From Auriscalpium vulgare (Eukaryota > Basidiomycota > Agaricomycetes > Russulales > Auriscalpiaceae), in contig JAHBBC010000028.1 in NCBI GenBank assembly GCA_019915015.1, forward strand, positions 62,001 to 126,000: 64,000 bases of DNA. Direction: 5' to 3'. The notes under the pieces were generated by a model that saw only the letters and a program-made list of their open reading frames with translations, made no database searches and was not told the DNA's origin. Position 1 is the stretch's first letter, and every line of letters starts with the position of its first letter. Made by a program: the position numbers and the translations under genes. Shown in pieces: positions 13,183 through 48,667 of this stretch.

Positions 13183-13378
13183 TTCTTCTGCCTTGACGAC
13201 TGGAGTTACTTATAGCGTATTAGCGACTCACCGTTGGCACTGGCAGGCAGGCGAAGCCGTATTTACATGTGTTGTGCAGCGGCGGCCCGCCGGGCCGCGC
13301 CTACAGCCTCGGAGCGCGAAGCGCATCACAAAATTTGTTTACGAGTTGCACCACAAAGCGGTCGAGACTATCTAAAAA

Positions 13379-21464: not shown

Positions 21465-23931
21465 ATGGCGTCCGGGTCGAGTGCAAACCACGCTGATGCC
21501 GAGCTAGACGACTCAGCTCGAAACTTGAGGCCTCGTCGCGCATGCACCAGTTCGTGTATCTTCACGCTTTCTTGACCGTGTCTAACAGTCGTCTAACTTG
21601 TGCTGTCCGTATCGCAGAGCAACCCGCCGCGCGTCCGGTCGAACGAGTGCGATACGCGGGCGGGAAAAATGAACAGAGAGCCAAAGGGCCGCCTCGGGCT
21701 AAACGTGGACGCGCCAGCGTGCTGCCCACCTTGCCGCTCGAAATCTTGCACGAGGTTCGTGATTTATATGTCTGTTTACTTTCTGCCTGTACATGAACTC
21801 TCACAGATATTTGGACATCTGCCGCCCGACGCCCTTATCAAGCTTACCTGCACATCGAAAGCTTTCCGCCAATTTCTGCTGTCACAACAATCACTTTTCC
21901 TGTGGAGGGACTCTTACAATCTTGTTCCGGATGCTCCTCCGTGTCCCGATGACATGTCTGTGCGCGCATGGGCTCATCTAGTCTTTGGAGGCGCTTATTG
22001 CTACGTGAGTACCACAATGCCTGCGTCTTTCACCTCCATTCATCCGCTCCCAGACGTGCGGCACGAAGGACGTGAGCACGATATTGTTCGTCTTCCGTCG
22101 CCGCGCCTGCAACGTTTGCTCGAAGCAACAGTAAGCCCCGCCAACCCGCGAGTTGCGCATTGCTAATGGAATTCAGTTTACTGAATGCCTCCGATGCCTC
22201 CGAGCGGTTTGGCGTGGCGTTGGCTGATCTTGAGGGAGTGCCTCACATTCGCGGTAAGCTCCGGCATGGTCGCGTTCGCAAAGGACGCTGATCCCGGATA
22301 TACGATAGACAACCTCATGAAGAACTACTGGTGGGATGAAGACATGGACGTCCTTCGGGAGGAACTCGACGCCCTCCTGGCCCGCCATCGGGGCGAAAAG
22401 TCAGCGGCGTACAAGTCACATTTAGACGAAGTCCGAGCTGCAAAGAAAGCGGCCGCCGACGTCAGGTTGAAGGTCACCGTCTGTTACTGCTCATGTATCA
22501 GTTGTTGACTAACCATGTCGACAGCATCACGACATCTCTCAGATATGGGACAACGAGCGACTCACCGACATCAAGGAGAAGCGCTTCGAGGAGTAAGCAC
22601 ATACACTCTAGCCTAGATACCATATGCCTGACCGTTGTCCAGCATCAAGACGCGTCTCTTGGCTCTGGACTACGCCGCTCGTGAGATCGACGCAATTCGA
22701 GACCATCGCGAAGTACTTGTACCCAAGCCGATGACCGACCGTGGTCAGTGCACACGCGCAGTTCTCGCCCTCAGCCAGCTCATTCGTGGTATACAGTATG
22801 GGCGCGCATTCACCAGGCCCTGGTGGTAGAGCTTCTGCGGAAACGGGAACGGCAGCTGCAACTTGACCGTGAGGCGCGCGAGCGGAATCGAGACGTGGCC
22901 CTCGCGAACGCGTGGGCGGCCTATGCACGCACGCTCCCTGCGCATGTTGCCGCCATCGTGGCTGGAATTCGCCCGCGCTCTATCCCATCCGTCGCCGCGA
23001 CAGTCGAACCCGACGAGGACGGGAGCCCTACCCTCGAGCTGCGTATCAAGGCCGCGATCCACGATGCTCATTCGGAGGTCATGGAGCGTATCCGCAGCTC
23101 CGCTGAGCGCCTCCTTGCCCTCCTTCCGCTGCCGAGTCCCGTTCCGTCTCTGTCCACGGAGACCACATTCAGCAATGAATTCCTCATGGGGACGATGGGC
23201 GGGCTCGCCCTCGCAACGTCGCACTTTTCGTGTGACGGTCACGACTTCTCTAGACTCGCTGGCTCTACTGGCATGGAGATGCTCGCCCATTTCTGCGAGC
23301 AGACACGGTTCTCCGAGGCACGGCGCGATGTGGTGCTACGTCTCCTAGAGGCGCTGCATATGGATCCCGAAACGACTACTGCACAAGACCTGGACCGCAC
23401 CGAGGCGCAATTCGTCTGTATGCAGTGCCCGATTGATAAGATACGGAGAGGCAAAAAGTCTGTCATCGGTAGAAATGCCATGTATTGGCGCGGCTGTGTG
23501 AGTCCATGTCAACATCTTGGATGTTGCATAGTTGCTAGACTAATGGCAGGTCACGCATTCTGCTATGATGCACGGAGGAGAACTCCACGCCGGGCAGTGG
23601 AGGCTGCTCAATGAAACTGAGGCACAGCTCGCGCGGGAATGTTTCGTGCCACGGGAATCAAGGTTCAACTGCCCCTGGGGTTGCGGTCACTGCACATTCC
23701 ACCTGAACAACCTCAGCTATTCTCATCGGGAGATGTGGCTCTCACAAACTGAGGTGCTTGCACACGTTAAAGCAGAGTGAGTCGCCCCGCTCGTATGTCA
23801 ACTATACTCGTCGCCAACGCTCATCGTTCCTCAGGCACGCGATTTTGGCACCGGTGTCGGGAGTGGATTATATCCACAATCCGCTCACTAGCTTCTCCGA
23901 CGCTCGTGGAGCTCTGGTTATGGACACATAG
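21465..23931 (+). CDS. F-box protein with zinc-ribbon tail (copy B)
   Basis: The right-arm counterpart of copy A, with the same exon pattern (start MASGSSANHADAELDD, stop TAG 23929-23931), predicted about 650 aa. It has the F-box LPLEILHE-IFGHLPPDALIKL, SLFLWRDSYNLVPDAPP, a Cys4 ribbon, the WWDEDMDVLREEL helix region, the middle domain with RPRSIPSVAATVEPDEDG, and C-terminal FVCMQCP, WGCGHCTFHLNN and PVSGVDYIHNP, which resemble a second metal site. The 10 nt missing from copy A are present, so the ordinary GTGAGT donor keeps frame. Probable SCF substrate adaptor; the target is unknown. Confidence 0.78.
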
Positions 23932-24738
23932 TGCTATATAAAAGATTGTCAAGCCCCACAACTGCCCGCACCCATGGAAGCTACATGAGTTCGTATAGGC
24001 CAATGTAGCCGCCACTGCGCCATGGGCCATTGGTCGCGATTTCTGATGACACATTTTTCTGTCGCTATCCCTTATACATTGACCGACGATTAAGGTTGCC
24101 TTCTCCTTTATTCCTCCACCGCCTACTAGTTTTTGAAACGGAGGCGGAGTGTTGCAACAAGTGGGTGAGCCCTCCGGCGCCGAGAAATCGGTACGCTTAC
24201 TGCTTTACGATTCGTAGATGTCTGTCGATGTCAGTGGGGGAAAATATCAGTACTGTCTGGTCGAGTAGCAGCATCTTTCATTCGCAAGAGAGCGCAGGTG
24301 TCGCTCCTCACGCTTCACCAACTGTACTCACGATCGCACTGCTGCCAGTGAACGCGACTCGCGTTGAACGTTGATCCATTGTCCAATCACCATGACCAAC
24401 GCAAACTCGCTCACCACATCTCATGATGAGCTGCAGGACCTCAAGCTCACAGTGAGTCTCGACACCGGCGAGACGCGTCCGGACCGCAACGCTCTTCGCA
24501 AAGCCAGCCACCCAGTGCACGTGTCACTTGGCACTAAGTAGCGAGGCTTCAGCACGTTCTGATTCAGCAGGTCCGCGCGACGCGCTCACCGAGCATTACT
24601 CATGATTATTGGGCCACAAAAGATGACGGACACAATCCGACAAATCATGAGAGCACGGCGCCGGCAACTACATCACCCGGGCCGGTGTGCCCACTGAACT
24701 CTCCCCGCACAGCGGCAGCGTTAACCATTACCATCACT

Positions 24739-26747: not shown

Positions 26748-26771
26748 CGCGTATATTATGTAATAAACGCG
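26748..26771. promoter_or_regulatory. 24-bp imperfect palindrome in coiled-coil copy 3 promoter
   Basis: The same element as at 5705-5728 and 8312-8335, about 75 bp upstream of the ATG at 26845. Confidence 0.5.
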
Positions 26772-26844
26772 ATGGAAGGTCCACGACTCGTGTAGGCCAC
26801 GAGCAACCGCGCTTTCTCTCTATCGATCTTCCTCTGGTATAAAT

Positions 26845-27503
26845 ATGCGTCCCGCTCAGAAATCTGTCTACGCTATCGCACCGCATCTCTTGCCCTACGC
26901 CCCTGCACGTCCAAAACACCGCTCTCCCCGTCGTCGCGCCCACGCACGCAACACACTTGTCCCCTCCCCTCTCGCTGCACAAATGTCCCACTCGACAGAG
27001 GGCAGCGACGAAGAATTCGACGGCGATTCTGTACCCTTCGCCGCACAAACGTTTAACTCCTCACCAGAAAGCAGCTTCAACACGAACACCACCGGCGGCT
27101 CTCTTAAGACTCTCGCCGTCAGGTCGGCACCTGACGACAGCTACGCCGGCGCGGACAGCGATCTTCACCAGCACCCTGCCAGCGTCTTCAGCAGGGCCGA
27201 CATATCCCTTCGACCCACTGATGACCCCATGATCAACCAACCGGTACTGCCCAGCCGCGAGGCGGGGTCCCGACCGCAAAACATTATGTCCCTGGTCTCA
27301 TCTCCCCCGCCATCTCTCTCCCAAGGCAGTACGGACATGGGCCTTCCCTCCGTCTCCAATGCCACGCACTCCCTCTCCCAGGGCAGTGTGGACATGGACG
27401 TCACCTCCGCCTCCGATGCCCCGCTCTCCCTCTCCCAAGGCAGCGCGGACATGGACCTCACCTCCGCCTTCGATGCCCCGCTCTCCCTCTCCCAGGACAG
27501 CGC
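26845..27503 (+). pseudogene. Coiled-coil gene copy 3, 5' part (split by Ty3 element)
   Basis: A TATAAAT box (26838-26844) touches the first ATG; a second Met is at 26983. The frame matches copy 1 up to SLSQDSA and then runs into the LTR, giving a chimeric tail that ends at 27777. The rest of the gene resumes at 41941. Removing the element and one target-site copy restores an uninterrupted frame of 588 codons plus stop, so the gene was intact until the insertion. Confidence 0.85.
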
Positions 27504-28352
27504 TGATGAGATGAACCCTGGGGGAGGCCCCGGGAACGTCGATAGAAATGGAGGGAGCGAGCAGCCAACCGCTGGCCCAAGAGGTAGTGGGTCGGAGGAA
27601 GAAACCCAAGATCGCGACCGTGCCCCGAACAAACCACCCAGGACCCCGCGGGTCCTGCCCTCGTCCTGCGGCTCTCTCTCTCTCGCTCTCTCCGCTCCCG
27701 TCCGACCGTCGCACGTTGCGTCTCTTCCCACACTATTCGGTGCGACCCTCCCGTCTGTCGCCGCCGGTCCGTCCTAGTTGCGGAGTCGCCCTTGCCGTCC
27801 GACCGTCCGACCTGTGTCCCCGCGCTTGTACCGTCCGAGTCGCTATCCTGGAATATAAACGTCAGTCATAAAACCTACCACACTGTATCACTCCAGTCTG
27901 TGGTTGAGTCGGGGCAGCGTAGCCCGTGGTATCGCAAAGGTGGCGCGACCCGGATGTCGCTACGACTTCCTGGTTTAAGGCATCGTGTCGGGCTGGTCTG
28001 GCGGTATCGCGTCGTGCGGTGCTCTCTGTGAAGCAGGAACGAAAGGTGTAGTCTCGGGTGTAGGCCCAAGGTCCAAAAGTGTCCCTACAACAAGTCGAAT
28101 CGCGTCTATATACCGCTGCTTCGTCAGCTCTTCCCACGCGTCTGCGCTCCTACGCGTCCTACCAAGTTCCGCGCCCGACCGTTCCGACTCCCTACCTCGG
28201 CTCTCCGACTCCTCCCCAGACGCTCGCTCGCTTTGTGCTGTCCCGTGGTCGTGCCGGTGCCGCGACGCCTGTGGGGCGTCTCGGGGGTGTGTGTCTTGGT
28301 GTAGCGGTGTGATTGGTCCTTTTCGGTGCCTGTAGCGCTGCGGGTCCCATCA
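27504..28352 (-). repeat. LTR of Ty3 element, left (3' LTR in element sense)
   Basis: 849 bp, TGATG...CATCA. It differs from the right LTR by one missing A in an A-run (near 28075); no other difference was noticed. It carries TATA boxes on both strands. Confidence 0.93.
27854..27859 (+). promoter_or_regulatory. TATA box in LTR, plus strand
   Basis: TATAAA within GGAATATAAACGTC. In this left LTR it points into the element, toward the antisense genes starting at 28502. The same site in the right LTR (41437-41442) points outward into the split coiled-coil gene. Confidence 0.4.
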
Positions 28353-28390
28353 TCCTCCCCCCAACTGAGCTACCGACTGCCCTCAGTCGG
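28353..28390 (-). promoter_or_regulatory. Polypurine tract and hairpin, copy 1 (at the LTR)
   Basis: On the minus strand GGGGGGAGGA abuts the LTR start TGATGGG, the expected place of the plus-strand primer. Ten nt upstream (28373-28390 on plus) is a perfect hairpin CCGACTG-CCCT-CAGTCGG. Two more copies lie at 30016-30054 and 34140-34174. Confidence 0.8.
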
Positions 28391-28501
28391 CGAATCCCCG
28401 GATGGCTCCTCCTGATAAAGGCTCCCTCGCGCCGTCTCGATGAGTCGTCAGGTAGCGTCGCACCGCCCGCCCGACCAACCAACCCCCCCCCACACACCAT
28501 C

Positions 28502-29728
28502 ATGACCTGGTCTCCCCACACGTACCGTCGCGGTACTCTCTTGCTGTACCACCTGGGTCGGGCCCCCAGCGCGGACTTCCCGCTCGCAGCAGCCGCCGAA
28601 GCGATCGAATCGCGCGAGCGTTGGGCACAGGAGGTGTTGGCTGTCATTGTACGGTTCCCCTCTTTTCCGCCCCGTTGTCGCGCTAACCGTCCGCTCCCAT
28701 CGGCTGTAGGAATCCATCACCGATTCCGACCCCAGGCTGATCATCCCCCTCGCCGAGCGCATCCTCATGCCGATACTCGAGAACGCCATCCTCCTCGTAC
28801 CCGAGGTCGAGGATCGCTTCCGCTCGTGGGCGGGGCGCTTTCTTCGTCCCGCCCCGCTCCCTACGACCGAGCTGCACCCGTGGACCTCCGTTGTTGATCG
28901 GGTCGACCTACTTGACGCCCCCAAGGTTCGGCTGACCGCGACGCTGGTTGAGGAGAACTTTTGGGTCGTGTTTCGCAAACGCGGGTGCTCGGTCGCGTCG
29001 TACTTGCGCGAGCTCGCCATTTTCCATGCCGCCATCCCCGATGACCGTCCCCTGGGCAACCAGACGTGGGTCGCGTACGTCCTCCGAGAGGCCTTGGAAT
29101 GTTCCGCGCTCTCCATTCGCCACTCGCGTGGTGGGACCGCTTTCCTTCCCGACTACGTCGCCCGCGAGTCGACCGCTTGGCCCATTTCGCCCCCACGCAG
29201 TACGGTCGCAACCTCGGCGGACTGGGTGCGCGTCTTTTAGCTCGTTTCGAGGCCGTGTACCGCGAGACCGTCGAGGAGCTCGCTGGGGCTACGGAGAACG
29301 TCGCCAATCTGCAAGCCCTTTGGGCCGACGCTCCCTACCTGTTAGCCATCGTTCGCGACCCCTGCCTCTCCCTCGAGCACGCAACCCGACTCTTCCTGGA
29401 GTACGCAGTGACTGCGGCATACGTTCTGCGCCATTTCCCAGCCGCCCCGACCGAGCCCGACCTTTACACGAACAACCTCTTGGTGACCTTTGTGCGCCAT
29501 CGTGTATTGTCGGGGCTCCCCGCCTTGCCCGCCGGTGATGGTGTCGGCTTGGTTGACGACGATGCCGGCGGTGTCGATTCCGACGAGCAGATGCAGGGCG
29601 ATCCCGTGGACGCCGGGGGTGTCGGGGATGATGTCGCTGTGATGGAGCGTGTGGTGGTCGGCGATGTCGGCGCGATAGTGGATTACCGCAGCGATAGTGG
29701 TAGCGACATCGCGAGCAGTCGTGAGTAG
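28502..29728 (+). CDS. Antisense cargo gene 1, 373 aa, unknown function
   Basis: Start MTWSPHTYRRGTLL. Exon 1 (28502-28648) is 49 codons; a 61-nt GT-AG intron follows, then 28710-29156. A second, weaker intron (29157-29200, 44 nt, donor GTCGCC) is needed to reach 29201-29728. The product is 373 aa, mostly helical, with an acidic tail (VDDDAGGVDSDEQ). It is a paralogue of the 374-aa gene at 30150: same length, same first-intron position and phase, and similar spacing of WAQEVLAVI / WGRKVATLY. It lies wholly inside the retrotransposon, opposite to gag-pol, and may be driven by the plus-strand TATA of the LTR. No domain is recognised. Confidence 0.7.
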
Positions 29729-30015
29729 TGTACCCCTTCTGTAAATGGTCCCTCCGGCCGCCATGAATCGCACAGAACTGTGGCCCCTGATGTCTCATAG
29801 CAATGATCGTCGCGTTTCGCTGCGTGGGCGACTCATAGCGTCGCGCGGTCTCCGACCGTGTTCTGATGGATCGCGGATTCGGTTGCGCGTGGTCGGCTCT
29901 GACTTTGTCTTGTCCCGCTCCCTTCTGGCTACTTGTTCCTCGTGCACCCTGCGCAGGCTGGTCACCCGTCGCCGAGAAAATCCCTATCTTTCTCCTCGTC
30001 GCTCGTGACTGGCCA

Positions 30016-30054
30016 TCCTCCCCCAACTGAAATCTGCGCCTGTCCTCAGACGCA
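30016..30054 (-). promoter_or_regulatory. Internal polypurine tract and hairpin, copy 2
   Basis: Plus strand TCCTCCCCC-AACTGA, then hairpin TGCGCCTG-TCCT-CAGACGCA (30035-30054, one mismatch). It lies between antisense genes 1 and 2. The sequence matches the LTR-adjacent tract, while the stem bases differ and still pair. Confidence 0.7.
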
Positions 30055-30149
30055 AATTCTCCGGCCAAACCCCGGCATATCGGGTCGCGGCGGGTTTCCG
30101 ACGGCCTACATAACGAGTGCGGTCGGTGCGTGCGACCCAGCCTCCGACC

Positions 30150-31331
30150 ATGTCGTCCAGTTTCACCCTTGAGGCGCGTGCTTTCGCCCTTGTCGGGCTA
30201 CTCCTCACTCCGCCCGCGATTGACCTGGAGACCGCTCCCGTCGAGACCCTGGTTCTGGCTCGGGAGGAGTGGGGTCGCAAGGTTGCTACGCTCTACGTAA
30301 GTCCTCGCGCTGTCGTTGCGATCCCCGCTCACGTCCGTGTCGCGCTTATCCAGAATGAAGTGTATAACACTGCGAAGCCATCCGTCCTTCGTCTTGTCCA
30401 GGCAATTGTCAGCCCCGTCTTCGAGACGCTGTTCACTGTGTCCCCCGAGTCGCGCGCCGCGTTTGCTGAATGGGGTGGTAACCTCGTCAGCGACCTCGCG
30501 CCTCCGACGTCCGCTCCTCTCGACCCGACATTTTCGGTTCGCCCAATCGCTGGATTCACCTTCCCGAACAATCGCGACCACTCTCGCCAGCTCTCGCGCC
30601 TCTGCGAGGGCGCCCTGTGGGCCGCATTTGAGTCGGGCCGCACGTCCGTTCCCCAGTACCGTCGCAGCCTTGGTGAGCTCTGCTTGGCCGCTCATCCCAC
30701 CGGTCGCGGAGCGGGCATCGACGCGACAGTCCACGCGGAGTTCATTGCCGGCATGAATGCTTGCGCTTCGGCTCTTCAGCGCCTGAACGGCGGGGAAGAG
30801 GCCCTCCTGTCCGAGGTCCATCGCCTCTCCTACTCGACCACCGGCATATCCCTCCCCGACCTCCTGCGTACCCTCGCGCACCCTCTGTCCGATACGCTCA
30901 TTACCCACACCACCGAGACCGTGGCGACCTTGGCGTCGATCTACGGCACCATCGCGCAACTTGCGCGACCCGACGACCGCCGCGCGCGTGGTCGCTGGGG
31001 TCCGTATGCCGACGCCTTTGACTCTGCGGATGGGTTCTTGGAGGCCGCCGCTGCCGCGTATCTGCGCGACGCCTTGCAGTGGTCCACCACTATCGACAGT
31101 CTTCATGCGCGCACCGCCATTGAGAGCGCTATCCTCGCGTCGAACCTCCCCACCGAGTTATTGGCCGACGTCCACAGCGACCCGACGATGTTCTTGGACG
31201 AGGTCGTGACGTTCCGCGCAGTCCCGATGGGTTGGCAAAACGCGCACCGTGGTCGTCGAGGCGGGGGTGCGACTCGGGGGCGCCTCACTCAGCAGGGGCG
31301 TATCCCGCGTGACGATCCTGCCACGCTGTAG
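30150..31331 (+). CDS. Antisense cargo gene 2, 374 aa, paralogue of cargo gene 1
   Basis: Start MSSSFTLEARAFALVGLLL. Exon 1 is 49 codons (30150-30296). The intron 30297-30353 is GTAAGT...CCAG and 57 nt, so reading through it leaves the frame open. Exon 2 is 30354-31331. The spliced product is 374 aa, helical, ending in an Arg/Gly-rich tail (HRGRRGGGATRGR) that could bind nucleic acid. It shares length and intron position with cargo gene 1, which points to an internal duplication. It starts about 95 bp after polypurine tract copy 2. Function is unknown. Confidence 0.72.
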   Translation: MSSSFTLEARAFALVGLLLTPPAIDLETAPVETLVLAREEWGRKVATLYVSPRAVVAIPAHVRVALIQNEVYNTAKPSVLRLVQAIVSPVFETLFTVSPESRAAFAEWGGNLVSDLAPPTSAPLDPTFSVRPIAGFTFPNNRDHSRQLSRLCEGALWAAFESGRTSVPQYRRSLGELCLAAHPTGRGAGIDATVHAEFIAGMNACASALQRLNGGEEALLSEVHRLSYSTTGISLPDLLRTLAHPLSDTLITHTTETVATLASIYGTIAQLARPDDRRARGRWGPYADAFDSADGFLEAAAAAYLRDALQWSTTIDSLHARTAIESAILASNLPTELLADVHSDPTMFLDEVVTFRAVPMGWQNAHRGRRGGGATRGRLTQQGRIPRDDPATL

Positions 31332-31822
31332 CGTCGTCGCACTGTCGGAGCGTCGGGAGATAAAGGGAAAGAAAGAGCCCGCGTTAGTGTAGTGCCTTGT
31401 GCCCGCATGTACGTCGTTGAATGCCTCCCAATACGAGTATTGAACTTGCGACGCGTTACCCGCTTGTGCGACGCCAGTGTACCGTGGTCGCGCCCCGTGG
31501 GAGGGGCGGGCGCCAACGACTTGTGCGATTTCGCTCGCGCCAGCAACACGTGCCCGCCACGCGGCGTCGGAGCCGCGCGTGGCGTCCCGCACCGGTCCGG
31601 GGCATGTCGCGGGATCAAATCAACGATCGCTGATCAGATCGCGGATCGACCCGGCGTCGTGGGCGCTCGGAGGCAAAACCAGCGCTCTGGCCGGGCCACG
31701 CGGCCGGTCGCTCCCACGCACGCACCATTGTTCGTGCGCCTGCGGCGAAGTCGCTGTCGCCCTTCTTCCCTCTTCCCCTCACCTCGCTCGCTCGCCTTCC
31801 CGCTCCCCCGATTCCTCACCCC
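31332..31822. other. Spacer between cargo genes 2 and 3
   Basis: Presumed 3' UTR of gene 2 and promoter of gene 3. The last 80 bp are CT-rich (CTCGCTCGCCTTCCCGCTCC). No frame with support. Confidence 0.4.
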
Positions 31823-33917
31823 ATGGACGCTGCCACCGTCGCCGACGCCACCGCTACCCGCGCCATGCTGGATCTCCAGCTGGGCTTACTCGGGCCCATG
31901 GCGCGTGACGCCACCTCCGAGGCCCAACTCGCGCTGCTGCGCCCGCAAGCGCGCCAGCTCCTGGTACGTCTGCTCTTCCTGATCTCGCCTTCCTTTCTGA
32001 CTTGCGATTTCCTAGCGTGCCTACTACGACGCCCGTGGTCGTGGGGTGACGTTCTCCCCCGAGGCGCGCGCGCGGTACGACGCGCTTGAAGAAGCCGTGC
32101 GACCCCCGCCCCTGTTCCTCGACGAGGCGAACGAAGACGACGAGGCTGCGGAGGCCCCTGAAGCGCCCCAGGCGACCGTGCCGCGGTCCGCTCCGACCGT
32201 TGCCACGCCGTCGCCCCTCGTCGGCGCTGGGACGCGTGAGGGCACCGTCGCCGTGGCCGACCCTTCCGTTACCCGGCTCCGCCCCAAGGTGCGTGTATCG
32301 GCGGTCCTTGTCGTCACCCGCTAACCTCGCCCCTTTCTTTCTGCCCGCTCTTTACGCAGGCTCGTCGCGTGCTCGCGAACCGCGCGGAGGTGGTGTTGCC
32401 GCTCCCGGGGCCGGTCCCGCCGCCGCCTTCTGCCCGCGGGGAGCGCCTCGCCGCGCGTACCGCCACTGCGGCCGTCCAGCCTCCGTCCCAAGCCGCCGGG
32501 AAGCGCCGCGCCTCGCACTCCCCCACACCCCTCTCGTCTCCCCACGCGACCGAGTCGCCTCAACCCCGGCGCGGTCGCACCGCCAAAAAGGGTCGGCCCG
32601 CCCCTCGCCGCCGTCGCAGCCGTTCGTCGACGTCGCCGGGTAGTGGTCTCGACGACTCGCTGTCGGAGGCGGTAGACAGTGACGGCGACCCCTTGTTCCA
32701 CCGGTCGGATCGCCGCCCGACGCACACCGAGCGGTACGCTGGTGAGCGCATCAAGGTGAGCTACCCCCTCCCCATCTCCCCTGCTGTTGCTGACCGTCCA
32801 CCCTTCCAGACTTCTACCCGCTGCGGCCGCTGCCAGGCTGGTTTCGTGCGCGGGCCGGTGCGTTGTGAGTTCAAGCCTCACCGCCCCACCAAGTGCATCC
32901 GCTGTCGCGCCCAGCGCAAGGGCTGCGGCGGCGCTGTACTCGTGGACGGTTCGCGCCCTCGCGCCCCTTCCCCCCACCGTTCCCGTGGTCGGTCGGTCCG
33001 CTCCCGCGCTCCTTCTCGTGCCCCCCGGCCGCGTTCTGCCTCCCGTCGCGGCGCTGCGGCGCCTGTGGCGGCGCCCTTCTTCGCCAAGTTCCTTGCGGAC
33101 TTACTGGCGGCCGCCGACTCTGCAGGTACGTTGCTGCGCCCCTCTTACCCTTCTCCTAACACTCACCTGTTCTTCCCTCCCTTCAGATTCCCCACGTCGG
33201 GCTCGCGACCTCCTCGCGTCCGTGCTGGCGTCGGTGGACGAGGACGCGCGGCGTTTCGAGGACCTCCCTCCTGCCGACAACTTCTCCGACCATGCCGACT
33301 CCATCGCGCTCGTCCGGGCGGAGCTGGCTGCTAGCGCGACGACGCTCAACCTGTGGCCCTACCGTCACGACCGGCTCCTCGTGCGCCTTGCCCAGCTCGA
33401 GCACCAGTTCGGCTCGCGCGTGTCCGCCGACGCTGTGGCTTCCGAGGCCTCCCGCTCTCCCTCCCTCCGTAGTTCGCCGGTCGCTGGGCCCAGTGGTCAC
33501 CGGCGCTCTGACTCGCCCACCCTCGCCACCATTCCGCCCAGCTCCGTCGCCGCCTCTACTCCCGCCGCCCCGATCGTTAGCGATGAGGAGGAGGATGAGC
33601 TGGCGCCTGCTCGCGCCCCCTCCGTAGAGTCGCGCGCGTCCCCGGCTCCCGTGCATCCCGTGCTGCGCACGTATGGTCGCCGGCGCGCTGCTCGTACGCC
33701 CGCCGTGTCGGATGGCGCGGAGAGCGCGGAGGACCTTCCCTCGGCCGGCGGTATCCCCCTTGCCGCGCCTGCCGATCCAGCGGGTGTCGACGACGAGACG
33801 GACGACGACGAAGAGGAGAGCGAGGAAGGCGTGGTCGGAGTCGAGGAGAGCAGCGAGGAGGACGGTTCCGACGTTGGCGACGCCGTTGAGACCGTGTATA
33901 TGGACGTCGCTGAGTAG
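31823..33917 (+). CDS. Antisense cargo gene 3, 618 aa, Cys-rich zinc-binding-like protein
   Basis: Five exons: 31823-31963, 32016-32288, 32360-32755, 32810-33125, 33187-33917, all GT-AG, total 1857 nt (618 aa plus stop). The first intron is phase 0 after 47 codons, close to the 49 of cargo genes 1 and 2. After an Arg/Pro/Ser-rich basic stretch (KKGRPAPRRRRSRSS), residues about 275-310 hold CGRCQ...C...CIRCRAQRKGC, a Cys6 pattern reminiscent of Zn2Cys6 or knuckle-type nucleic-acid binders. The C-terminal 100 residues are highly acidic (DDETDDDEEESEE). It could be a DNA/RNA-binding or chaperone-like accessory protein of the element; that is inference. Confidence 0.75.
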
Positions 33918-34139
33918 GTCGACCCTTTCTCGCATTTTTCTCTGTTTCTTGTATTCTCTTGTTTTTGCGTTACTTTTCTTGTTGTTTTTCGTGCTGTCGT
34001 CTCTACGCATGCTTGCCCAAATAGAATTTTAGTGTCCCCCCCACCACAAGAGGAGAAAAGAAATAAGTTGAACCAATAGTCTCAGTGTACTGTCCGTGGT
34101 GTATCTCCTTAACGTAATACCTAGTCCAGTCGTATCGCG

Positions 34140-34174
34140 TCCTCCCCCCGACTGAAACTGCTGACCTCAGCAGT
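34140..34174 (-). promoter_or_regulatory. Internal polypurine tract and hairpin, copy 3 (just after pol)
   Basis: Plus strand TCCTCCCCCC-GACTGA, then perfect hairpin ACTGCTG-ACCT-CAGCAGT (34157-34174). It starts 14 nt beyond the pol stop. In ordinary Ty3 elements the polypurine tract and LTR follow pol closely, so this may be the ancestral position. Confidence 0.75.
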
Positions 34175-34187
34175 CGCGCACGGCCGG

Positions 34188-37100
34188 TCAGGCGACACTA
34201 CCGTCTTCCGCGCTGTTACTCGCTGTGTCCGACGCGTCGCTGTCTATGCTGCGTGATTCCTGTGCTTGGGCGTCGGAGCCAGGCTGCCCGAGAAGCTCGT
34301 TTAGTCGTCGGGCGGGTATGTCGATGAACTCCGGTAGCGGAGGAAGCGTGATGTGTGGTCGCGCGAAGTACGGAATGACGCGAAACTCCGCAGTGGGCCT
34401 GTCGAAGACCGCCCCGTGCATATCACACAGGACGTACGGTCCACCGCGTCGCCGCCCAATTACGATGAACGGACCGTCGTAGCGAGGCAGCATCTTGCGG
34501 TCGAGTGATTTCTCGAACTGCGTGAAACGTACCAGGACAAGGTCGCCTCGTTGGAAGCCGTAGTTCTTGATCGACGCTTCGTGGTCGCGCTCGAAAATCA
34601 GCGCATCATGCCGCCGCTTGTCAAACACTTTCGAGTGGAGCGTACGGAGCTGGGTGCGGCGCTTCTGAAGTGCGACAGCCCGTCGCGCGATTAAATCCGT
34701 CGTCGACAGTATTGAGTCAGGCGGTGGTAGGAGATACGTCGCCTCTACGATATCGAGGGGCATCAATGCCTGCGTGCCAGTCGCCGCGAAGTAGGGGGAG
34801 CAGCCCATACGCCTGCGCGTTGTGATCCTGTCCGCCCAGAATACCGAGTGTGCGACCGTGGCCCACTTGCTCGCGTCACCGTCGGCGGCCTTGTACAGGG
34901 CCTGTCGGACGTCGAAATGCGATCGCTCTACGATTCCGTTGGATCGCGAGTTATAGCCTGAGATGCGGATGTGCTGCACGCCGTAATCTTCCTCGAGGTG
35001 CTTCATCGCTGCTAGGTACGGCGTCCCGTTATCCGTTACGATTTCCCGGAGCGCTCCCCAGCGACAGAGTACGTCCTCGAATATCCATCGCGCGAGCGAC
35101 TTGGCATTTTCCTGACGCAGCATGCGCCACTCTGGGAAATGCGAGACCGAGCACCTGCCTTGTACGATGTATTTGAAACCTCGCGAAGCCGGCATGTGCA
35201 TGGTATCAGCGTACATCTTGGCGAACAGCGGCGCCGGGGTCGCGACCGTTGGGGGAATGAGCACGTGCTTCACCTGTCGCACTTGACAAATGTGGCACGA
35301 TCGGACAAACCACGCGACGTCGCGGTCCATGTAGGGCCACCAGAAGCGTTCGAGGAGAAACATCTTGGTCGGGTACGCGCCGCGATGGCCGACGTCGTCG
35401 TGGCACGCTTTTAAAGCCCCTATGCGGCGTTCCGGTGCTAAAACGAGCTGGTGGCGCCCCTGCGGCTCCTTGCGAAAGAGACTCGTGCCATCGAGGAAGA
35501 ACTCAGTGCAGTACCTTAGGAACGTCGCATACTCTTGGTCGGCGAGGCCCTCCGGTCGTTGGAGCGTGTTGTGCCATTCCCGCACTCGAACGAGTCGCTC
35601 GTCGGCCTGCTGCGCCTTGATGTCGCGGTCAACGGCGTCGTACGACAACTCTGTCGGAGCTGCCTGGGTGACGAACGTTGCGATCGCGGCCCTTGGTTGG
35701 TCGCGCGGATCCCCCGACCGTGGCCTTGTACTGCGCGGTACGTATGCGTTCACGAGGTGAATGAAGCCATACATTGCGTCGACCCAATCCTCGAACCCGT
35801 CGTGCTCATTCTCTGCCACGTCGCCCGGTTGGCGCCTTCGTCGCGACATCCCGTCAGGCCCATGAAACAGGCCGGGCACGTGAACTAGGACGAAATGGAA
35901 CATTAAAATGGCAATAATCCACCGATTCATGCTGGCTGAGGGTTCAATATCGGGGTTGTCGAGCATGCCCTTAATGTAGCGTGCGTCGACTTCCACGACC
36001 ATGTTCCGCACTCCGATGAGATATATCTTCAGCGCGCGGAGCGCCCGAAACAGGCCGTATAATTCTAACTTTGGTTGCGAAAAACGCGCCTCGCGATCGT
36101 TCAACGCGATGGACCCAAACCGTGCGTACCGACGCTTCTTGCGACTCTTCGGATCGTCGGCGTCAGCCTGGCACAGCAAGAACCCGACCGCAATAGGAGA
36201 CGTATCGACCGCGAGGATAACCGGTTTGCCCGACTGATAGTCGATCGGTTTCAGGGCTGGCGACTCCAGCAACGCGCTTTTGAGATCTTCCATAGCTGCT
36301 AATTGTTCCGCTCCGAATTCGAATGGCACATCTTTCCTCGTAAGGTGCGTGAGCGCATGCGCGCGATGTGCGAAATGGTGGATGAAGATCCTCAGCACCC
36401 CGACCGTCCCGAGGAACGCCCGCACATCGGACAGGTCTTGACATGGCCCCCAATTCACAATCTTAGCCACCCGTTGTTCGTCGGGGATCCGCCCGTCCCT
36501 CGTGCAGCGGTGTCCGACCACGACAATTTCGGGCGCGCACAAAATAGTCTTCCAACCCGAAAACGTCCCGCCCGAATAACCCATGCGCTGTACGACGCGG
36601 TTGAGATTCTGAAAGTGTTCCCAGACAAATCGGCGGATGCCCTCGTTGTCAGCGATTGTCTCGTACTTCCCCTGGTCGTCCTTGTATTCGCTCGCGGGGC
36701 CCTTGACCGGTACGTCATCAATAAACGGTATCGTGACGTGGGGAATTTCCGGCCTCAGGATATGTGTGACGTCGTCGTGGAAGATAGGCACTGAATTCGT
36801 CCAGCCCATCGGTAGTGTTACCAACCGCAGCGCGCCGTAAGGGGTCTGGAACGTAGTGAGGTCGCGCGATGCTGGGTCCAATGCTCGCTCGTCGTATCCG
36901 ACGTACAGATCCAGCATCGCGCCGCAAGCCCGACCCGCGAATTGCTCGGCCAGTTGGTCGGTAAACGGGGGCACACCGGAATGAGCTATCGTGACGGCGT
37001 TTAACGGCTCCAGGCTGTGCACTATGCGCAGGCTCGTTCCATCCTTTTTGACCACGCAGAACCACCGCGACCTATACGACGAATTGGATGGTTCGTAGAC

Positions 37101-37847
37101 GTTCGCGGCCAACTTCCGACTGATTTGTTCCATGACTTGGTCGTAGATTCCCGGCGGGATCGGTATGTTGCGTTGTACCCATGGCGTGTGCGGTACGACG
37201 GGTATCGTGACCGGCGGAAAGAAATCTTCGCGGAAGTGGCCTCGCTCGCTGTCGTCCCACGCGAACGCACCGTTGTGCTCGCACATAAAATGGTGCATCA
37301 GCTTGCGTTCCTCCTTCCACAAGAAGTCCCCCTCGTGAACTACGTCGAATTGGTCGCGGCGCTCCTCGGTGTAACGCCCCGTCGGCCGGAAGTCAGGGGG
37401 CTTCGTTGGTAACTTGGGTAGTGTCGCTAGCGGGTCGCCTCGTATGTCGCGTATGATTCTGAACTGCCCAGGCAAGTCGGCTAGTACTGGCTTCACTTTT
37501 AGGTGGGCTGGCTTATACTTTTTCTTGGTCGCTGCGAAAACTGCGCGTGCCCGCGCGCTGCTTGGCAGCGACTTACAGTCGCGAAATTCCTGTTCGCCTG
37601 CGAACGATGGCACCCCGGCTGGGGCGAGAAAGAAAACGGGCGCCGATGGAACGTCTAAAGTCGCGTCGGTCGGCCGATCAAATATTGGAGGGGTAGATTC
37701 TGGGAGATCGCAAAATGCTAAATAGGTTGCTCGTAACTCTTCCGGAGAACTAGAGGAGTCGAAGGGGACCACGGCTTCCACGGAAATAGGATCGGCGGCG
37801 TCGCCCGTGAACTCGAGGACGAGCGCCACTTCCGCCTGGTCGTCCAA
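34188..37847 (-). CDS. pol: Pol: reverse transcriptase, RNase H, integrase
   Basis: About 1219 codons in the third frame; expressed by frameshift, since the 5' end has no ATG (first possible start TTG). RT has SRWFCVVKKDG, GVPPFTDQLA, LVTLPMGWTNS and the active site FIDD (residues 375-378, in place of YxDD). RNase H spans about 543-680 with VDTS, KLELYG and VEVDARYIKGM. Integrase has the HHCC finger (CHDDVGHRG ... CHIC, about 815-855) and the D-D-E triad: YADTMHM, VTDNGTPY, NGIVERSH (about 881, 939, 974). The order RT-RNase H-integrase places it with Ty3/gypsy, in the clade widespread in agaricomycetes. The frame is intact. Confidence 0.95.
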   Translation of the reverse strand: MDDQAEVALVLEFTGDAADPISVEAVVPFDSSSSPEELRATYLAFCDLPESTPPIFDRPTDATLDVPSAPVFFLAPAGVPSFAGEQEFRDCKSLPSSARARAVFAATKKKYKPAHLKVKPVLADLPGQFRIIRDIRGDPLATLPKLPTKPPDFRPTGRYTEERRDQFDVVHEGDFLWKEERKLMHHFMCEHNGAFAWDDSERGHFREDFFPPVTIPVVPHTPWVQRNIPIPPGIYDQVMEQISRKLAANVYEPSNSSYRSRWFCVVKKDGTSLRIVHSLEPLNAVTIAHSGVPPFTDQLAEQFAGRACGAMLDLYVGYDERALDPASRDLTTFQTPYGALRLVTLPMGWTNSVPIFHDDVTHILRPEIPHVTIPFIDDVPVKGPASEYKDDQGKYETIADNEGIRRFVWEHFQNLNRVVQRMGYSGGTFSGWKTILCAPEIVVVGHRCTRDGRIPDEQRVAKIVNWGPCQDLSDVRAFLGTVGVLRIFIHHFAHRAHALTHLTRKDVPFEFGAEQLAAMEDLKSALLESPALKPIDYQSGKPVILAVDTSPIAVGFLLCQADADDPKSRKKRRYARFGSIALNDREARFSQPKLELYGLFRALRALKIYLIGVRNMVVEVDARYIKGMLDNPDIEPSASMNRWIIAILMFHFVLVHVPGLFHGPDGMSRRRRQPGDVAENEHDGFEDWVDAMYGFIHLVNAYVPRSTRPRSGDPRDQPRAAIATFVTQAAPTELSYDAVDRDIKAQQADERLVRVREWHNTLQRPEGLADQEYATFLRYCTEFFLDGTSLFRKEPQGRHQLVLAPERRIGALKACHDDVGHRGAYPTKMFLLERFWWPYMDRDVAWFVRSCHICQVRQVKHVLIPPTVATPAPLFAKMYADTMHMPASRGFKYIVQGRCSVSHFPEWRMLRQENAKSLARWIFEDVLCRWGALREIVTDNGTPYLAAMKHLEEDYGVQHIRISGYNSRSNGIVERSHFDVRQALYKAADGDASKWATVAHSVFWADRITTRRRMGCSPYFAATGTQALMPLDIVEATYLLPPPDSILSTTDLIARRAVALQKRRTQLRTLHSKVFDKRRHDALIFERDHEASIKNYGFQRGDLVLVRFTQFEKSLDRKMLPRYDGPFIVIGRRRGGPYVLCDMHGAVFDRPTAEFRVIPYFARPHITLPPLPEFIDIPARRLNELLGQPGSDAQAQESRSIDSDASDTASNSAEDGSVA

Positions 37848-37855
37848 CGACGCCT

Positions 37856-39517
37856 CTAGAGCCGAAAATCCCTGCGCTCGCCGGCGCTCTGAACGATGCG
37901 ACGCGAGCCTCGCTCTACTGTCGGGACGGTCGCCGTCGCTTGAGTGTTGGGATCGGTGATCGTGACGGTCTGTCGCTCATCGACAAAGTTGCGGACTATA
38001 CTCCCAGTGAGGACGTCGAAGGGCCTCCCTAGCAGGATGTCGTAGGCCGGAGAACGTATGACGTGTATCTGTACGTAGAGCGTGATGTCGCCTAGCTTTA
38101 GCGCTACGTTGCGGGCTAGCCCGAGGGATTTGTCAATCGAGCCGTTGGCGGAAAGCATGTCCAGTGTGATCGCGGGATCATATGCCAGGCCGAGAAAATG
38201 ACAAACGTCTTCGGACATGGAGATGACCTGCGACCCTGGATCCAGGATAGCCTCAATGTGCGCTTGGTTATCCACCAAGGGCAGGACCGCTCGCAATGCC
38301 GATGACTCTTTTGCGACCACCAGCGGGGCCGGTTTCTCGGCCGAGGCACTCATCAACGTCAGCATCGGGTCGGAGAGCACCAGCGACCCGCGAGGCGGCA
38401 CCGCTGGCTGGCTCTGTATGGCCTGCAAGAACGACGACGGCATGTGCGAGGTGTATCCCCGCGCTCGATCTCTCTCCTGCTCGCGCTCTTCCTCGTACAA
38501 GTCGCCGGGTAGGTCCGACCACTCCTTGGTAGGCCCTTCCCCTTCCGCTACGACCGTGTGTAGGACCGCTACTGGGGAGTCCCCGCTGGACAGTACCGGG
38601 GCCGCTATGCGTCGCGGGGTGATAGCGTATCGCAACTGGGAACGTACTTCTGGCGCCAGCGACAGTAACTCGCTCTGTGTCAGAGTGACGGAAGTCTCCA
38701 TCGCGCGGCCGTAGACTTCCTTCGCGACTTCCTCACTATGGATGGGCGTGTCCTTGGTATAGGCGGCGACTGGTTTCTTCCCTTTGTCTGGTCGGGACGC
38801 GTCCCCGACGGGTATGTAGGTTGCGTCGGGTACGGAGGCGAAAGGATGGATGGGTTCCGGCTCTATCTCCTCGGGGTCCTTCTCGACTGTCGGCTCACCC
38901 TCGCTCTCTTCCATCGCCGCTTCCGCATCCTCTGGACCTTCGGGCACCGCGAACGTAACCTTCGGCCGCTTGGCCGTGAATTTCGACGGAGATATGACCA
39001 CCTCAGGGACTAGCCTCTTGGATCGCACTCTCTCCCGGGCAGCGGACCGATTGGTGGCGGTAACTCTCCGTTGCGAATCGCTGCCTCCCTTCGGGCCCGG
39101 CCGGCGTTCCTCTGCTCCTTCATGAGGGTTAATACCGCCATCTCTTGACGCAACTCCTCGAGTCGCTCGTCGTCCGTCAACGGCGGGATTAACTGGATGA
39201 GCCCGGCGACCGGCTGGTCGCGCGCAGGTCGGAGCGGGTAGTCGGTGACGGCGATGGGACCTGTCGATGCCAACATCATTGTTTCCGTCGCGTTGCCCGC
39301 GACTCTGGCCGCGACGTCGGCGCGCAGCCCGGACGGGTCCGTGCGATAATATTCGTCTACCCTCGCTTGAATCGGGCCTAGCCCAAATGGCACTGGCCTG
39401 CCGTTCTTGAGTACCACCTGGTTCATCTCGTTGCGTACCACCCGCCCCGTCGCTATGTAGTCTTGCAGGACGAGGCATTCGCGGATGAAGTGCTCGGGAC
39501 CGTTGCAGAACGAGCAC
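37856..39517 (-). CDS. pro: Pro: aspartic protease frame
   Basis: The frame is open from 39517, overlapping gag by about 500 nt, but meaningful sequence starts near the gag stop at 39010. That fits entry by -1 frameshift. After an acidic linker the protease has AILDPGSQVISMS (DPG in place of DTG/DSG, a variant known in fungal Ty3 elements) and AYDILLGRPFDVLTG, the retropepsin ILLGR motif. It ends in TAG at 37856. The pol frame is one further -1 step and is open for at least 120 nt before the pro stop. Confidence 0.85.
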   Translation of the reverse strand: MLVLQRSRALHPRMPRPARLHSDGAGGTQRDEPGGTQERQASAIWARPDSSEGRRILSHGPVRAARRRRGQSRGQRDGNNDVGIDRSHRRHRLPAPTCARPAGRRAHPVNPAVDGRRATRGVASRDGGINPHEGAEERRPGPKGGSDSQRRVTATNRSAARERVRSKRLVPEVVISPSKFTAKRPKVTFAVPEGPEDAEAAMEESEGEPTVEKDPEEIEPEPIHPFASVPDATYIPVGDASRPDKGKKPVAAYTKDTPIHSEEVAKEVYGRAMETSVTLTQSELLSLAPEVRSQLRYAITPRRIAAPVLSSGDSPVAVLHTVVAEGEGPTKEWSDLPGDLYEEEREQERDRARGYTSHMPSSFLQAIQSQPAVPPRGSLVLSDPMLTLMSASAEKPAPLVVAKESSALRAVLPLVDNQAHIEAILDPGSQVISMSEDVCHFLGLAYDPAITLDMLSANGSIDKSLGLARNVALKLGDITLYVQIHVIRSPAYDILLGRPFDVLTGSIVRNFVDERQTVTITDPNTQATATVPTVERGSRRIVQSAGERRDFRL

Positions 39518-41037
39518 CTGGCGCCATCCTGTCCCGGGGCCGGGCGAGGACGATCGAAACGAGCGGCCGACGCCATCATCGGGCCCGGTGGCCCGCGCGT
39601 GTACGCCGACGGCTGCGGGCCTGCGTTACTCATCCCCATCGCATCGGCTCTCCCCGCGCTATACGCTTTCGCGATCTGCTCGGCCGCCTTCTCCATCAGA
39701 GCGGCAAACTGTTCGACCTTGATCGCCGGTTCTTCCGCCTTGACGGCCACGGGTTGGGACAAGTCGGCCAGACCCGCGGGGACGCTGAGCCCTGCCGATC
39801 GCGGGGTGCTCGACGTGCCGTGCAGCACGTACCGCGCCGCTTCCACTATTTGGTCCATCGGGTACGGGCCGTCGCGATCGTGGTCGGGATACTTCAGCTG
39901 CAGCCGCTGCTCTATCCTATCTTGCAGTCCCTTCTGGAATCCACGCAAGAAAGTGTAGTCGCGGTCGCGCTCGGAGATCCGCTGCCGCCCTATAAGAAAC
40001 TGGGAGATCGCGTAGAAACCGCGATAGTATTCCCCAACGTCGCCGATGGTCGTGATGCCTCGGCGGGCTGTCTCGGCGACGAGCTGATCGAGGTCGCCCA
40101 TCGTGTATTTGCGCTCCTCGTCCGCTCCGGGGTATAGCGCTATGATCGCGGTCACGAACTCTTCGAACGTCGCATTGCCCGCGTACTGGGGTCGGCTTTG
40201 CCACTGGTCTGCTGTAAGGACGTCCAGGTATCGCGTGGCGTGCTCCTTCTTCTCCTGGTCCTGGCCGTCCTCGATACCCGCCCGCGTGAACAAGTGCCTC
40301 AACTCCGCGAAATAGCGTTGCAGCTCGCGCGGCTTAAGATTGTCGAACTTAGGGGCTTGGCGGTCGCCACGGGTAGGCATCGGAGTGGCCATGGTCGCAC
40401 GACGGGGTAAACGCGATAACGGAGTACTGGATTGCGATGTGGGAGAAACTGGTCGGGAAACCTGTGCGGCCGCTCCACGCCCGTCTCCTGATAAACCTCC
40501 GTGCGTTCCGACGTTTCCGCGGTCGGAAGCCAAGCGGTCGCTGTCGGAAGGCACCTGTGCCTCGTCTCGGTCCTCATCCATCAGCGCAGCCACTTCGGGC
40601 TCCGATTCCGACGGGGTAAGCTCCGGCGACGACCATTGTCGCATCGCTCCGCCAGTCAGCAACTCGATCGACGCCTCATTGACGTCCAGGAGCTCCTGAT
40701 GGAGGGACCGTCTACCATCCCAACCGTGCTCCGACTCCTCCGATTGGACAGGGCCTGCCTCCGCGTTTTGATCGCCGGGAGCCTCGCCCGCAGCATCCCC
40801 GTCGTTCTCGGGTGCTGCGTCCGACCCACCCGATGCCTCGCCGTCGTCGTTTTCGTTGTCGCCCTCGGCGCCTTCAGCGCTGGAAGTCGCGCGCTCTTCG
40901 CCCGACGCCCCACCTTCCGACGATGCGAGGTGTCCTGGCATGGACTCCGCCCGCTGACTGGTCGAGTACTCCGACGGGGCCGATCGGGGCGGTGCGCGTC
41001 GAGTGGGCTCTACGATAACCCTCGCCTTTGGTGCCAT
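39010..41037 (-). CDS. gag: Gag: capsid and nucleocapsid, 675 aa
   Basis: ATG at 41037 (MAPKARVIVEPTRR), 50 nt inside the LTR. The N-terminal 200 residues are disordered and acidic. Then comes a capsid-like helical region with LKPRELQRYFAELRHLFTRAG and YPGADEERKYTMGDL, and a CCHC zinc knuckle CSFCNGPEHFIREC. Ends PLPGRECDPRG. Retrotransposon gag forms the virus-like particle and binds the RNA. Confidence 0.92.
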   Translation of the reverse strand: MAPKARVIVEPTRRAPPRSAPSEYSTSQRAESMPGHLASSEGGASGEERATSSAEGAEGDNENDDGEASGGSDAAPENDGDAAGEAPGDQNAEAGPVQSEESEHGWDGRRSLHQELLDVNEASIELLTGGAMRQWSSPELTPSESEPEVAALMDEDRDEAQVPSDSDRLASDRGNVGTHGGLSGDGRGAAAQVSRPVSPTSQSSTPLSRLPRRATMATPMPTRGDRQAPKFDNLKPRELQRYFAELRHLFTRAGIEDGQDQEKKEHATRYLDVLTADQWQSRPQYAGNATFEEFVTAIIALYPGADEERKYTMGDLDQLVAETARRGITTIGDVGEYYRGFYAISQFLIGRQRISERDRDYTFLRGFQKGLQDRIEQRLQLKYPDHDRDGPYPMDQIVEAARYVLHGTSSTPRSAGLSVPAGLADLSQPVAVKAEEPAIKVEQFAALMEKAAEQIAKAYSAGRADAMGMSNAGPQPSAYTRGPPGPMMASAARFDRPRPAPGQDGARCSFCNGPEHFIRECLVLQDYIATGRVVRNEMNQVVLKNGRPVPFGLGPIQARVDEYYRTDPSGLRADVAARVAGNATETMMLASTGPIAVTDYPLRPARDQPVAGLIQLIPPLTDDERLEELRQEMAVLTLMKEQRNAGRARREAAIRNGELPPPIGPLPGRECDPRG

Positions 41038-41065
41038 CGGGTTGCTGAGCGGTTGACACTAGCCC

Positions 41066-41082
41066 CCTCGCGGTGGGCTCCA
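41066..41082 (-). other. Putative primer-binding site of Ty3 element
   Basis: Minus strand TGGAGCCCACCGCGAGG, four nt inside the LTR. It starts with TGG, the complement of a tRNA CCA end. I cannot name the tRNA from memory. Confidence 0.5.
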
Positions 41083-41086
41083 CAAA

Positions 41087-41936
41087 TGATGAGATGAACC
41101 CTGGGGGAGGCCCCGGGAACGTCGATAGAAATGGAGGGAGCGAGCAGCCAACCGCTGGCCCAAGAGGTAGTGGGTCGGAGGAAGAAACCCAAGATCGCGA
41201 CCGTGCCCCGAACAAACCACCCAGGACCCCGCGGGTCCTGCCCTCGTCCTGCGGCTCTCTCTCTCTCGCTCTCTCCGCTCCCGTCCGACCGTCGCACGTT
41301 GCGTCTCTTCCCACACTATTCGGTGCGACCCTCCCGTCTGTCGCCGCCGGTCCGTCCTAGTTGCGGAGTCGCCCTTGCCGTCCGACCGTCCGACCTGTGT
41401 CCCCGCGCTTGTACCGTCCGAGTCGCTATCCTGGAATATAAACGTCAGTCATAAAACCTACCACACTGTATCACTCCAGTCTGTGGTTGAGTCGGGGCAG
41501 CGTAGCCCGTGGTATCGCAAAGGTGGCGCGACCCGGATGTCGCTACGACTTCCTGGTTTAAGGCATCGTGTCGGGCTGGTCTGGCGGTATCGCGTCGTGC
41601 GGTGCTCTCTGTGAAGCAGGAACGAAAGGTGTAGTCTCGGGTGTAGGCCCAAGGTCCAAAAAGTGTCCCTACAACAAGTCGAATCGCGTCTATATACCGC
41701 TGCTTCGTCAGCTCTTCCCACGCGTCTGCGCTCCTACGCGTCCTACCAAGTTCCGCGCCCGACCGTTCCGACTCCCTACCTCGGCTCTCCGACTCCTCCC
41801 CAGACGCTCGCTCGCTTTGTGCTGTCCCGTGGTCGTGCCGGTGCCGCGACGCCTGTGGGGCGTCTCGGGGGTGTGTGTCTTGGTGTAGCGGTGTGATTGG
41901 TCCTTTTCGGTGCCTGTAGCGCTGCGGGTCCCATCA
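41087..41936 (-). repeat. LTR of Ty3 element, right (5' LTR in element sense)
   Basis: 850 bp. A minus-strand TATATA at 41691-41696 is placed to start the gag-pol RNA. It is one nt longer than the left LTR. Confidence 0.93.
41691..41696 (-). promoter_or_regulatory. TATA box for gag-pol transcription
   Basis: TATATAGACGCG on the minus strand, about 240 bp from the outer LTR edge, leaving a U3 of ordinary size. The equivalent site in the left LTR is 28107-28112. Confidence 0.45.
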
Positions 41937-41940
41937 GCGC

Positions 41941-48660: not shown

Positions 48661-48667
48661 AGAAGAA

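Follow-up and report, generated by a model that had tools for sequence, protein, structure and literature searches.

When a spliced RNA is reverse-transcribed its introns are lost, so the genes of retroelements are expected to be without ordinary introns on the sense strand. How, then, could a long terminal repeat (LTR) retrotransposon carry a whole set of spliced genes? The question is raised by a 64,000-nucleotide stretch of the Auriscalpium vulgare genome (NCBI GenBank assembly GCA_019915015.1, contig JAHBBC010000028.1, positions 62,001 to 126,000 of the forward strand), referred to here, at its full length, as the window. A Ty3/gypsy LTR retrotransposon of 14.4 kb occupies window positions 27504–41936 on the minus strand. 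A first-pass annotation, made from the letters of the window, had placed three plus-strand genes in the roughly 5.8 kb between pol and the downstream LTR of this element, with gag-pro-pol on the minus strand, and had argued that an antisense position would allow an LTR element to inherit spliced genes. The layout was borne out: the three genes, called g1, g2 and g3 here, start at 28502, 30150 and 31823, and open reading frame (ORF) and Pfam positions put gag, protease and pol on the opposite strand. The argument is itself supported by intron retention, by selection on the frames and by the presence of the block throughout the family. We consider it likely that the element represents an autonomous-type Ty3/gypsy family whose gene set includes g1, g2 and g3 as an antisense accessory module serving the element.

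Copies, introns and constraint across the genome

Searches covered the 51.6-Mb assembly, in which contigs are labelled C# and loci L#. Copy counts are lower bounds; generally the best 40 candidates were scored, of up to 209. The best 40 of 114 candidate LTR matches comprise two unpaired LTRs and 19 pairs. With a span of about 14.4 kb, 17 of the pairs mark full-length copies, for which the annotation had recommended a search, and every one of these encloses g2 (17/17); two shorter pairs lie on C53, with g2 inside, and on C2, without it. Counted by gene, there are at least 40 copies of g2 (best 40 of 45 candidates), 29 at 98–100% and 11 at 81–82% DNA identity, plus one short piece; for the g1 region, 40 copies were scored, at 94–100% identity. 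Among the 40 scored pol copies (best 40 of 209 candidates), 32 have g2 no more than 8.5 kb away. Random absence of the block from other copies, which the annotation had named as a danger to its proposal, is not the pattern that emerged from these 40 copies, and the C2 copy lost its g2 through an internal deletion that runs from inside g2 to inside pol. The antisense block is the standard layout of the family and not a one-off, and with at least 40 copies g2 does not resemble a host gene transduced in a few copies. The annotation's word "cargo" undersells the block, since the three genes appear to belong to the element constitutively.

The flanks differ between copies, which indicates that each copy transposed separately and took the block along. 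Perfect 4-bp target duplications border 17 of 17 elements (15 scored by script; the C33 copy and the window copy by eye). All 17 have the form NCGN, with a central CpG, the CpG frequency of the window (0.086) being the sole baseline; judged from these sequences, integration is apparently targeted to CpG. One of the two shorter copies, at C53:85776-94701 (8.9 kb), has both LTRs and g1–g3 and is absent from the 40 best-scored matches for pol and for gag alike. This copy may be a non-autonomous derivative in which the antisense module has been kept.

The introns travel with the genes. The g2 intron is present, in gap-free alignment, at 30 of 30 loci read, out of the 40 copies. A probe of 30 bases for the spliced g2 junction, in the versions of both g2 types (A and B, 81–82% apart), has no occurrence in the genome at up to 3 mismatches, and the positive control, the exon-intron boundary of type A, was recovered 29 times, once per type-A copy. 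Three further g3 types, at 56–57% protein identity to that of the window, have all four introns at the same places; among the four types the introns themselves share 40–71% of aligned bases and differ by small indels. These data show directly that introns have been retained through repeated transposition. We infer that strand is the reason: the introns of the block are reverse-complemented in the genomic RNA, so by the established rules of splicing and reverse transcription they should not be removed from it.

The annotation had also made its proposal depend on purifying selection. The ratio of non-synonymous to synonymous substitution rates (dN/dS) is below 1 between g2 types, between g3 types and between g1 classes. 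Types A and B of g2 differ by 155 synonymous and 54 non-synonymous changes (dS 0.90, dN 0.069, dN/dS 0.076), a synonymous excess with a binomial P of 4e-47. In the proposed frame of g2 exon 2 the counts are 134 to 44, and codon position 3 takes 131 of the 178 changes. Read in the other five frames, the same exon gives a prevalence of non-synonymous changes in four; the fifth, on the minus strand, gives 102:73 but contains 10 stop codons. Between g3 types, dN/dS is 0.215–0.359 at dS 0.70–1.09 (P 1e-32 for L039 against L040), and between classes of g1 exon 2, with 15–18 synonymous and 8–12 non-synonymous changes, it is 0.18–0.23. Within types the ratio is higher and noisy, up to about 1, as expected because fresh copies drift. 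Purifying selection acts on the frames across element-borne allele types.

The antisense genes and the element that carries them

Coordinates are collected in Table 1. The annotation had counted six to seven GT-AG introns; six stand, and the seventh, a second g1 intron of 41 nt, was rejected as the product of a single-base frameshift in the window copy. g1 has two exons of 49 and 339 codons and encodes 388 aa; its intron follows codon 49, the same place as in g2, and exon 2 is open for 338–339 codons at 25 of the 33 loci with an anchorable start. Alignment shows the two genes to be paralogues, with 24% identity across 187 aa and an E of 7e-10. g3 encodes 618 aa in five exons with four introns, and the introns of g2 and g3 are all GT-AG and 52–71 nt long. 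Independent public A. vulgare models agree: P0001 and P0002 match g2, and the protein of P0003 reads on through all four g3 junctions, which is a hint of plus-strand splicing. Intact g3 models were obtained at 6 of the 13 loci attempted (11 copies), in addition to the window; six more loci do not reach g3.

Table 1. Features of the element in the window, by position
Feature	Position	Strand	Basis
3′ LTR (element sense)	27504..28352	-	TG...CA ends; paired with 41087-41936
PPT3, polypurine tract (PPT) and hairpin at 3′ LTR	28353..28396	-	window and 5 other loci reaching the place
g1 exon 1, 49 codons	28502..28648	+	gene model
g1 intron, GT...AG, 61 nt	28649..28709	+	gene model
g1 exon 2, frameshifted in window copy	28710..29728	+	gene model, locus comparison
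PPT2, between g1 and g2	30016..30062	-	37 of 38 loci reaching the place
g2 exon 1, 49 codons	30150..30296	+	gene model
g2 intron, GTAAGT...CAG, 57 nt	30297..30353	+	gene model
g2 exon 2, including stop	30354..31331	+	g2 = 374 aa
g3 exon 1	31823..31963	+	gene model
g3 exon 2	32016..32288	+	gene model
g3 exon 3	32360..32755	+	gene model
g3 exon 4, six invariant cysteines	32810..33125	+	alignment of four types
g3 exon 5, acidic tail, stop	33187..33917	+	gene model
PPT1, just downstream of pol	34140..34177	-	window and 7 others reaching the pol side; few changes in L041
pol ORF: reverse transcriptase, RNase H, integrase	34188..37976	-	Pfam and PDB sequence match
Aspartic protease ORF	37856..39625	-	Pfam PF13650
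gag ORF	39010..41058	-	ORF list; CCHC motif in translation by eye
5′ LTR (element sense)	41087..41936	-	pairwise LTR alignment

None of the three products has a Pfam match at the curated cut-off, including to the TRP28 domain of Retand (PF04195). NCBIfam gave no significant match for g3, PDB profile searches gave nothing significant for g1/g2 or for g3, and the model of the g3 cysteine exon has no significant fold match in the PDB. The six invariant cysteines of g3 are spaced C-x2-C-x10-C-x9-C-x2-C-x6-C. The protein does not fall within the Zn2Cys6 fungal transcription factors (Zn_clus, PF00172), whose spacing is C-x2-C-x6-C: Pfam gives no match at E up to 1 and the cysteine spacing differs. 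Our guess from the sequence is that g3 may be a zinc-cluster DNA-binding regulator. Protein searches, two of which scored the approximately 8000 candidates sharing most words, returned no homologue outside A. vulgare, and one scan of viral contigs returned no relative of the three proteins.

The two LTRs of the element are 99.88% identical across 850 aligned columns, and both have TG...CA ends. Residues 280–702 of pol match Ty3 Gag-Pol (7q5b, E 7e-23), so that the closest solved reverse transcriptase is that of Ty3, and residues 824–1043 match the integrase of prototype foamy virus in PDB sequence comparison. Reverse transcriptase and RNase H lie upstream of integrase, which is the Ty3/gypsy order. 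A Pfam search with the gag ORF gave no match. A stretch resembling a primer binding site follows the 5′ LTR; the complementary 15-mer occurs at 242 places in the genome, with no tRNA in the four loci scanned. This number of occurrences suggests many LTR elements with the same presumed primer.

At the insertion site, a 4-bp duplication, GCGC, was read by eye at 27500–27503 and 41937–41940, and a paralogous site without the insertion lies at 4973–4978. The element interrupts a coding exon of a coiled-coil gene (26767–27503 and 41937–43048), of which an uninterrupted paralogue of 571 codons lies at 3994–5709 on the minus strand and a third relative at 8369–9793. Elsewhere in the window, a segment of about 3 kb is present three times (10313–13587, 21435–24333 and 48264–51311; 87–94% identity, one inverted). 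A 1440-codon open frame on the minus strand, in a GC-poor region at 54588–58910, appears by eye to be a Copia-type polyprotein, and an open frame at 61013–62059 on the plus strand has the look of a NACHT-type NTPase.

Mosaic elements and internal polypurine tracts

Backbones differ from g2 and g3 in how they vary. gag and pol are each 96–100% identical among 40 scored matches, with g1 in a similar range, yet the g2 types stand apart as given above. Of the g3 candidates, all 38 of which were scored, 19 are at 99–100%, three partial ones at 96–100% and 16 at 68–73% identity. Combined by position, (g2,g3) is (A,A) in 11 cases, (A,other) in 14 and (B,A) in 8, with 7 of the 40 g2 copies untyped. 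Type B of g2 together with a non-A, incomplete g3 occurs in L035 and L033, both rearranged or truncated copies. As all four combinations exist, recombination is needed. Its traces are sharp in L032, where identity to the window shifts near 29.55, 31.65 and 33.9 kb, at the edges of genes; the LTRs of that element (on C17) are 89% identical to those of the window and 99.77% to each other, with pol at 100% and gag at 99%. A more distant lineage, at C6:268052, has the same order of the block, 86% nucleotide and 94% amino acid identity in the part of pol that was read, and a g3 for which there is no intact model. These mosaics are observed; they may have arisen by template switching, if heterologous genomes recombine during replication and backbones thereby swap g2 and g3 alleles.

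Two of the places that hold antisense genes, C43 and C40:73876, were counted as one event: L033/L085 (C43) and L087 (C40) lie in a 7-kb segmental duplication, 99.97% identical, that includes an old fragment of the block. That fragment adjoins a long frame that is NB-ARC-like by eye.

The sequence adjoining the 3′ LTR consists, in element sense, of a hairpin (loop of 4 nt), a linking stretch and the purine run GGGGGGAGGA. This PPT-hairpin motif is repeated between g1 and g2 and again directly after pol. The one locus that reaches the middle position and has no PPT2, L035, is rearranged there. Folding indicates that the stems vary in sequence by site and keep their pairing; at PPT3, the L032 copy forms the hairpin and the window copy folds into another structure. 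The internal copies may be extra starts for plus strands, which they could prime on a long cDNA, or scars of module gain.

Readings of the antisense block and known systems

If the block is an accessory module of the element, the genomic RNA would run from the 5′ LTR through gag-pro-pol into the antisense of g3, g2 and g1. The introns would read CT...AC in this RNA, so the spliceosome should ignore them and reverse transcription should copy them intact. After integration, transcription from the opposite strand is predicted to yield RNAs of the three genes that are then spliced and translated. Because purifying selection spans element-borne allele types, the most likely beneficiary of their products is the element itself, for instance through control of its transcription or by countering silencing.

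Several observations weigh against an accessory module. Eight of the 40 pol copies that were scored lack a g2 within 8.5 kb. Besides C2, four of them (C23, C48, C12 and C4) have g1 or g3 matches close by, and for C12 there is a g2 at a distance of about 15 kb, which fits a later insertion; for C58 and two places on C9, no match to the block was among the matches listed. An apparent replacement of g1 in L021/L036 was rejected, as the contig has a copy of g1 about 14 kb away from the g2 in question; here too, a later insertion between the two would fit. The g1 of the window copy is broken, this being one of the 8 of 33 loci at which exon 2 is not open, and the selection evidence for g1 comes from few changes (23–30). 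The attempted g3 loci other than the intact ones are fragments, interrupted or decayed copies. There is no match outside Auriscalpium, so the proposed role is without homology support. The predicted structures are uninformative, with predicted local distance difference test (pLDDT) scores of 37 for g2 exon 2, all-helical in a model of no confidence, and 62 for the g3 cysteine exon, and were not used.

How the block arose is a question compatible with an accessory role now. The block could be a remnant of other retroelements or of a DNA transposon, fused downstream of an ancestral PPT, with the internal PPTs as former 3′ ends and g1/g2 as a tandem duplicate of a PPT-plus-gene unit. One PPT-hairpin directly follows pol and two others lie upstream of g2 and g1, at about 134 bp and about 150 bp from the respective start; this arrangement fits such a composite, as do the paralogy of g1 and g2 and their common intron position. 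It would account for origin and not for present function, and a cargo-free ancestral element was not seen, the one cargo-less copy read (C2) being a deletion; we put the composite origin at somewhat short of an even chance.

Three host genes transduced once and hitchhiking since would explain the constraint differently, as selection that had acted on the host genes prior to capture. LTR elements are known to capture genes (PMC7264820, in the part available), and the Pfam and PDB searches gave the three products no homologue among known retroelement proteins. Transduction sits poorly with g2 and g3 alleles at dS near 0.7–1.1 inside elements of the same family, where constraint spans the element-borne types. 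Moreover, the scored g2 matches are copies at 81–100%, with no distinct single-copy host gene among the best 40 candidates, though one could be hidden. We regard passenger genes as unlikely.

Less probable still is that the block acts chiefly through antisense or double-stranded RNA (dsRNA) that limits the element, by copy-number control or silencing, with the proteins secondary. The layout does predict convergent transcription; the accessible parts of two papers discuss dsRNA silencing for antisense ORFs (PMC7264820) and report dsRNA responses to lentiviral cassettes in reverse orientation (PMC7897704). A regulatory RNA does not predict the bias towards codon position 3, the conserved splice sites or the intact frames of 592–650 aa. 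Finally, although the second g1 intron was an artefact and the sense strand of the block has open frames of up to 319 codons, the idea that the antisense frames are a shadow of GC-rich coding sequence with spurious introns is refuted for g2 and g3 by codon-specific constraint, fixed GT-AG introns of diverged sequence and the independent public models, and is practically eliminated overall.

An accessory module thus remains our preferred reading. A bolder extension of it, which we offer tentatively and think rather doubtful as a whole, is a natural "reverse-orientation vector": a permanent intron-bearing module would be inherited only by way of the antisense strand, with internal PPTs as possible plus-strand starts and cassettes shuffled between backbones. 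g3 would diversify rapidly and act as a DNA-binding regulator or an anti-silencing factor, and its swaps would change which copies escape host control.

On the evidence of selection and copies, the antisense strand lets a whole gene set escape the rule of intron loss, in a fungus. The family offers a testable system for the role of antisense accessory genes in LTR elements and for how such modules are gained and exchanged, and its near-identical copies, discrete allele types, internal PPTs and apparent CpG target rule make experiments straightforward.

Antisense accessory ORFs between pol and the 3′ LTR are known in plant LTR retrotransposons, namely Grande (gene23), RIRE2, Retand (TRP28) and PvRetro13 (PMC7264820, PMC11963269, in the portions at hand). 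To the extent described there, the plant elements are alike in the place of the ORF, its antisense direction, its presence in most copies and the regulatory role proposed. The A. vulgare element differs from them, as far as these portions go, in its three genes and six introns, in the keeping of g2 and g3 introns between allele types, in its internal PPT copies and allele swapping, and in having no TRP28 or other Pfam match. The word "intron" is absent from the main text of both PMC7264820 and PMC11963269.

Fungi have a precedent of their own in Boty. The antisense gene of this element, brtn, is reportedly described by Zhao et al. 2011. As cited in the accessible parts of PMC7264820 and PMC8365987, Boty is an LTR element of Botrytis cinerea with an extra antisense gene, and the latter part mentions brtn without introns. 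The likeness is that of a fungal LTR element with an antisense gene; the difference is that one gene is named, in a comparison by citation only, from excerpts. Among retroviruses, transcription of HBZ in human T-cell leukaemia virus type 1 (HTLV-1) proceeds from the 3′ LTR and gives a spliced mRNA. HBZ is an antisense gene of that virus (PMC11963269, in part), and so another antisense coding gene carried by a retroelement. On this partial account it is a single gene, whereas the A. vulgare element has three, of which g2 and g3 start far from the LTR.

The annotation had stated that no named fungal system of this kind, with a gene pair and a Cys-rich protein, was known. A literature search over titles and the starts of abstracts gave no recognisable report of a spliced antisense gene set in an LTR element, in line with that statement as regards the three-gene spliced set; antisense accessory ORFs as such are already published in the sources available in part, fungal Boty included. 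The strategy most alike is man-made: the cassette of beta-globin lentiviral vectors is inserted in antisense orientation to keep its introns in the genomic RNA (PMC7897704, in the part available), and there is no family relationship. Antisense accessory ORFs are thus known, and what looks new in A. vulgare is their three-gene, six-intron, recombining form.

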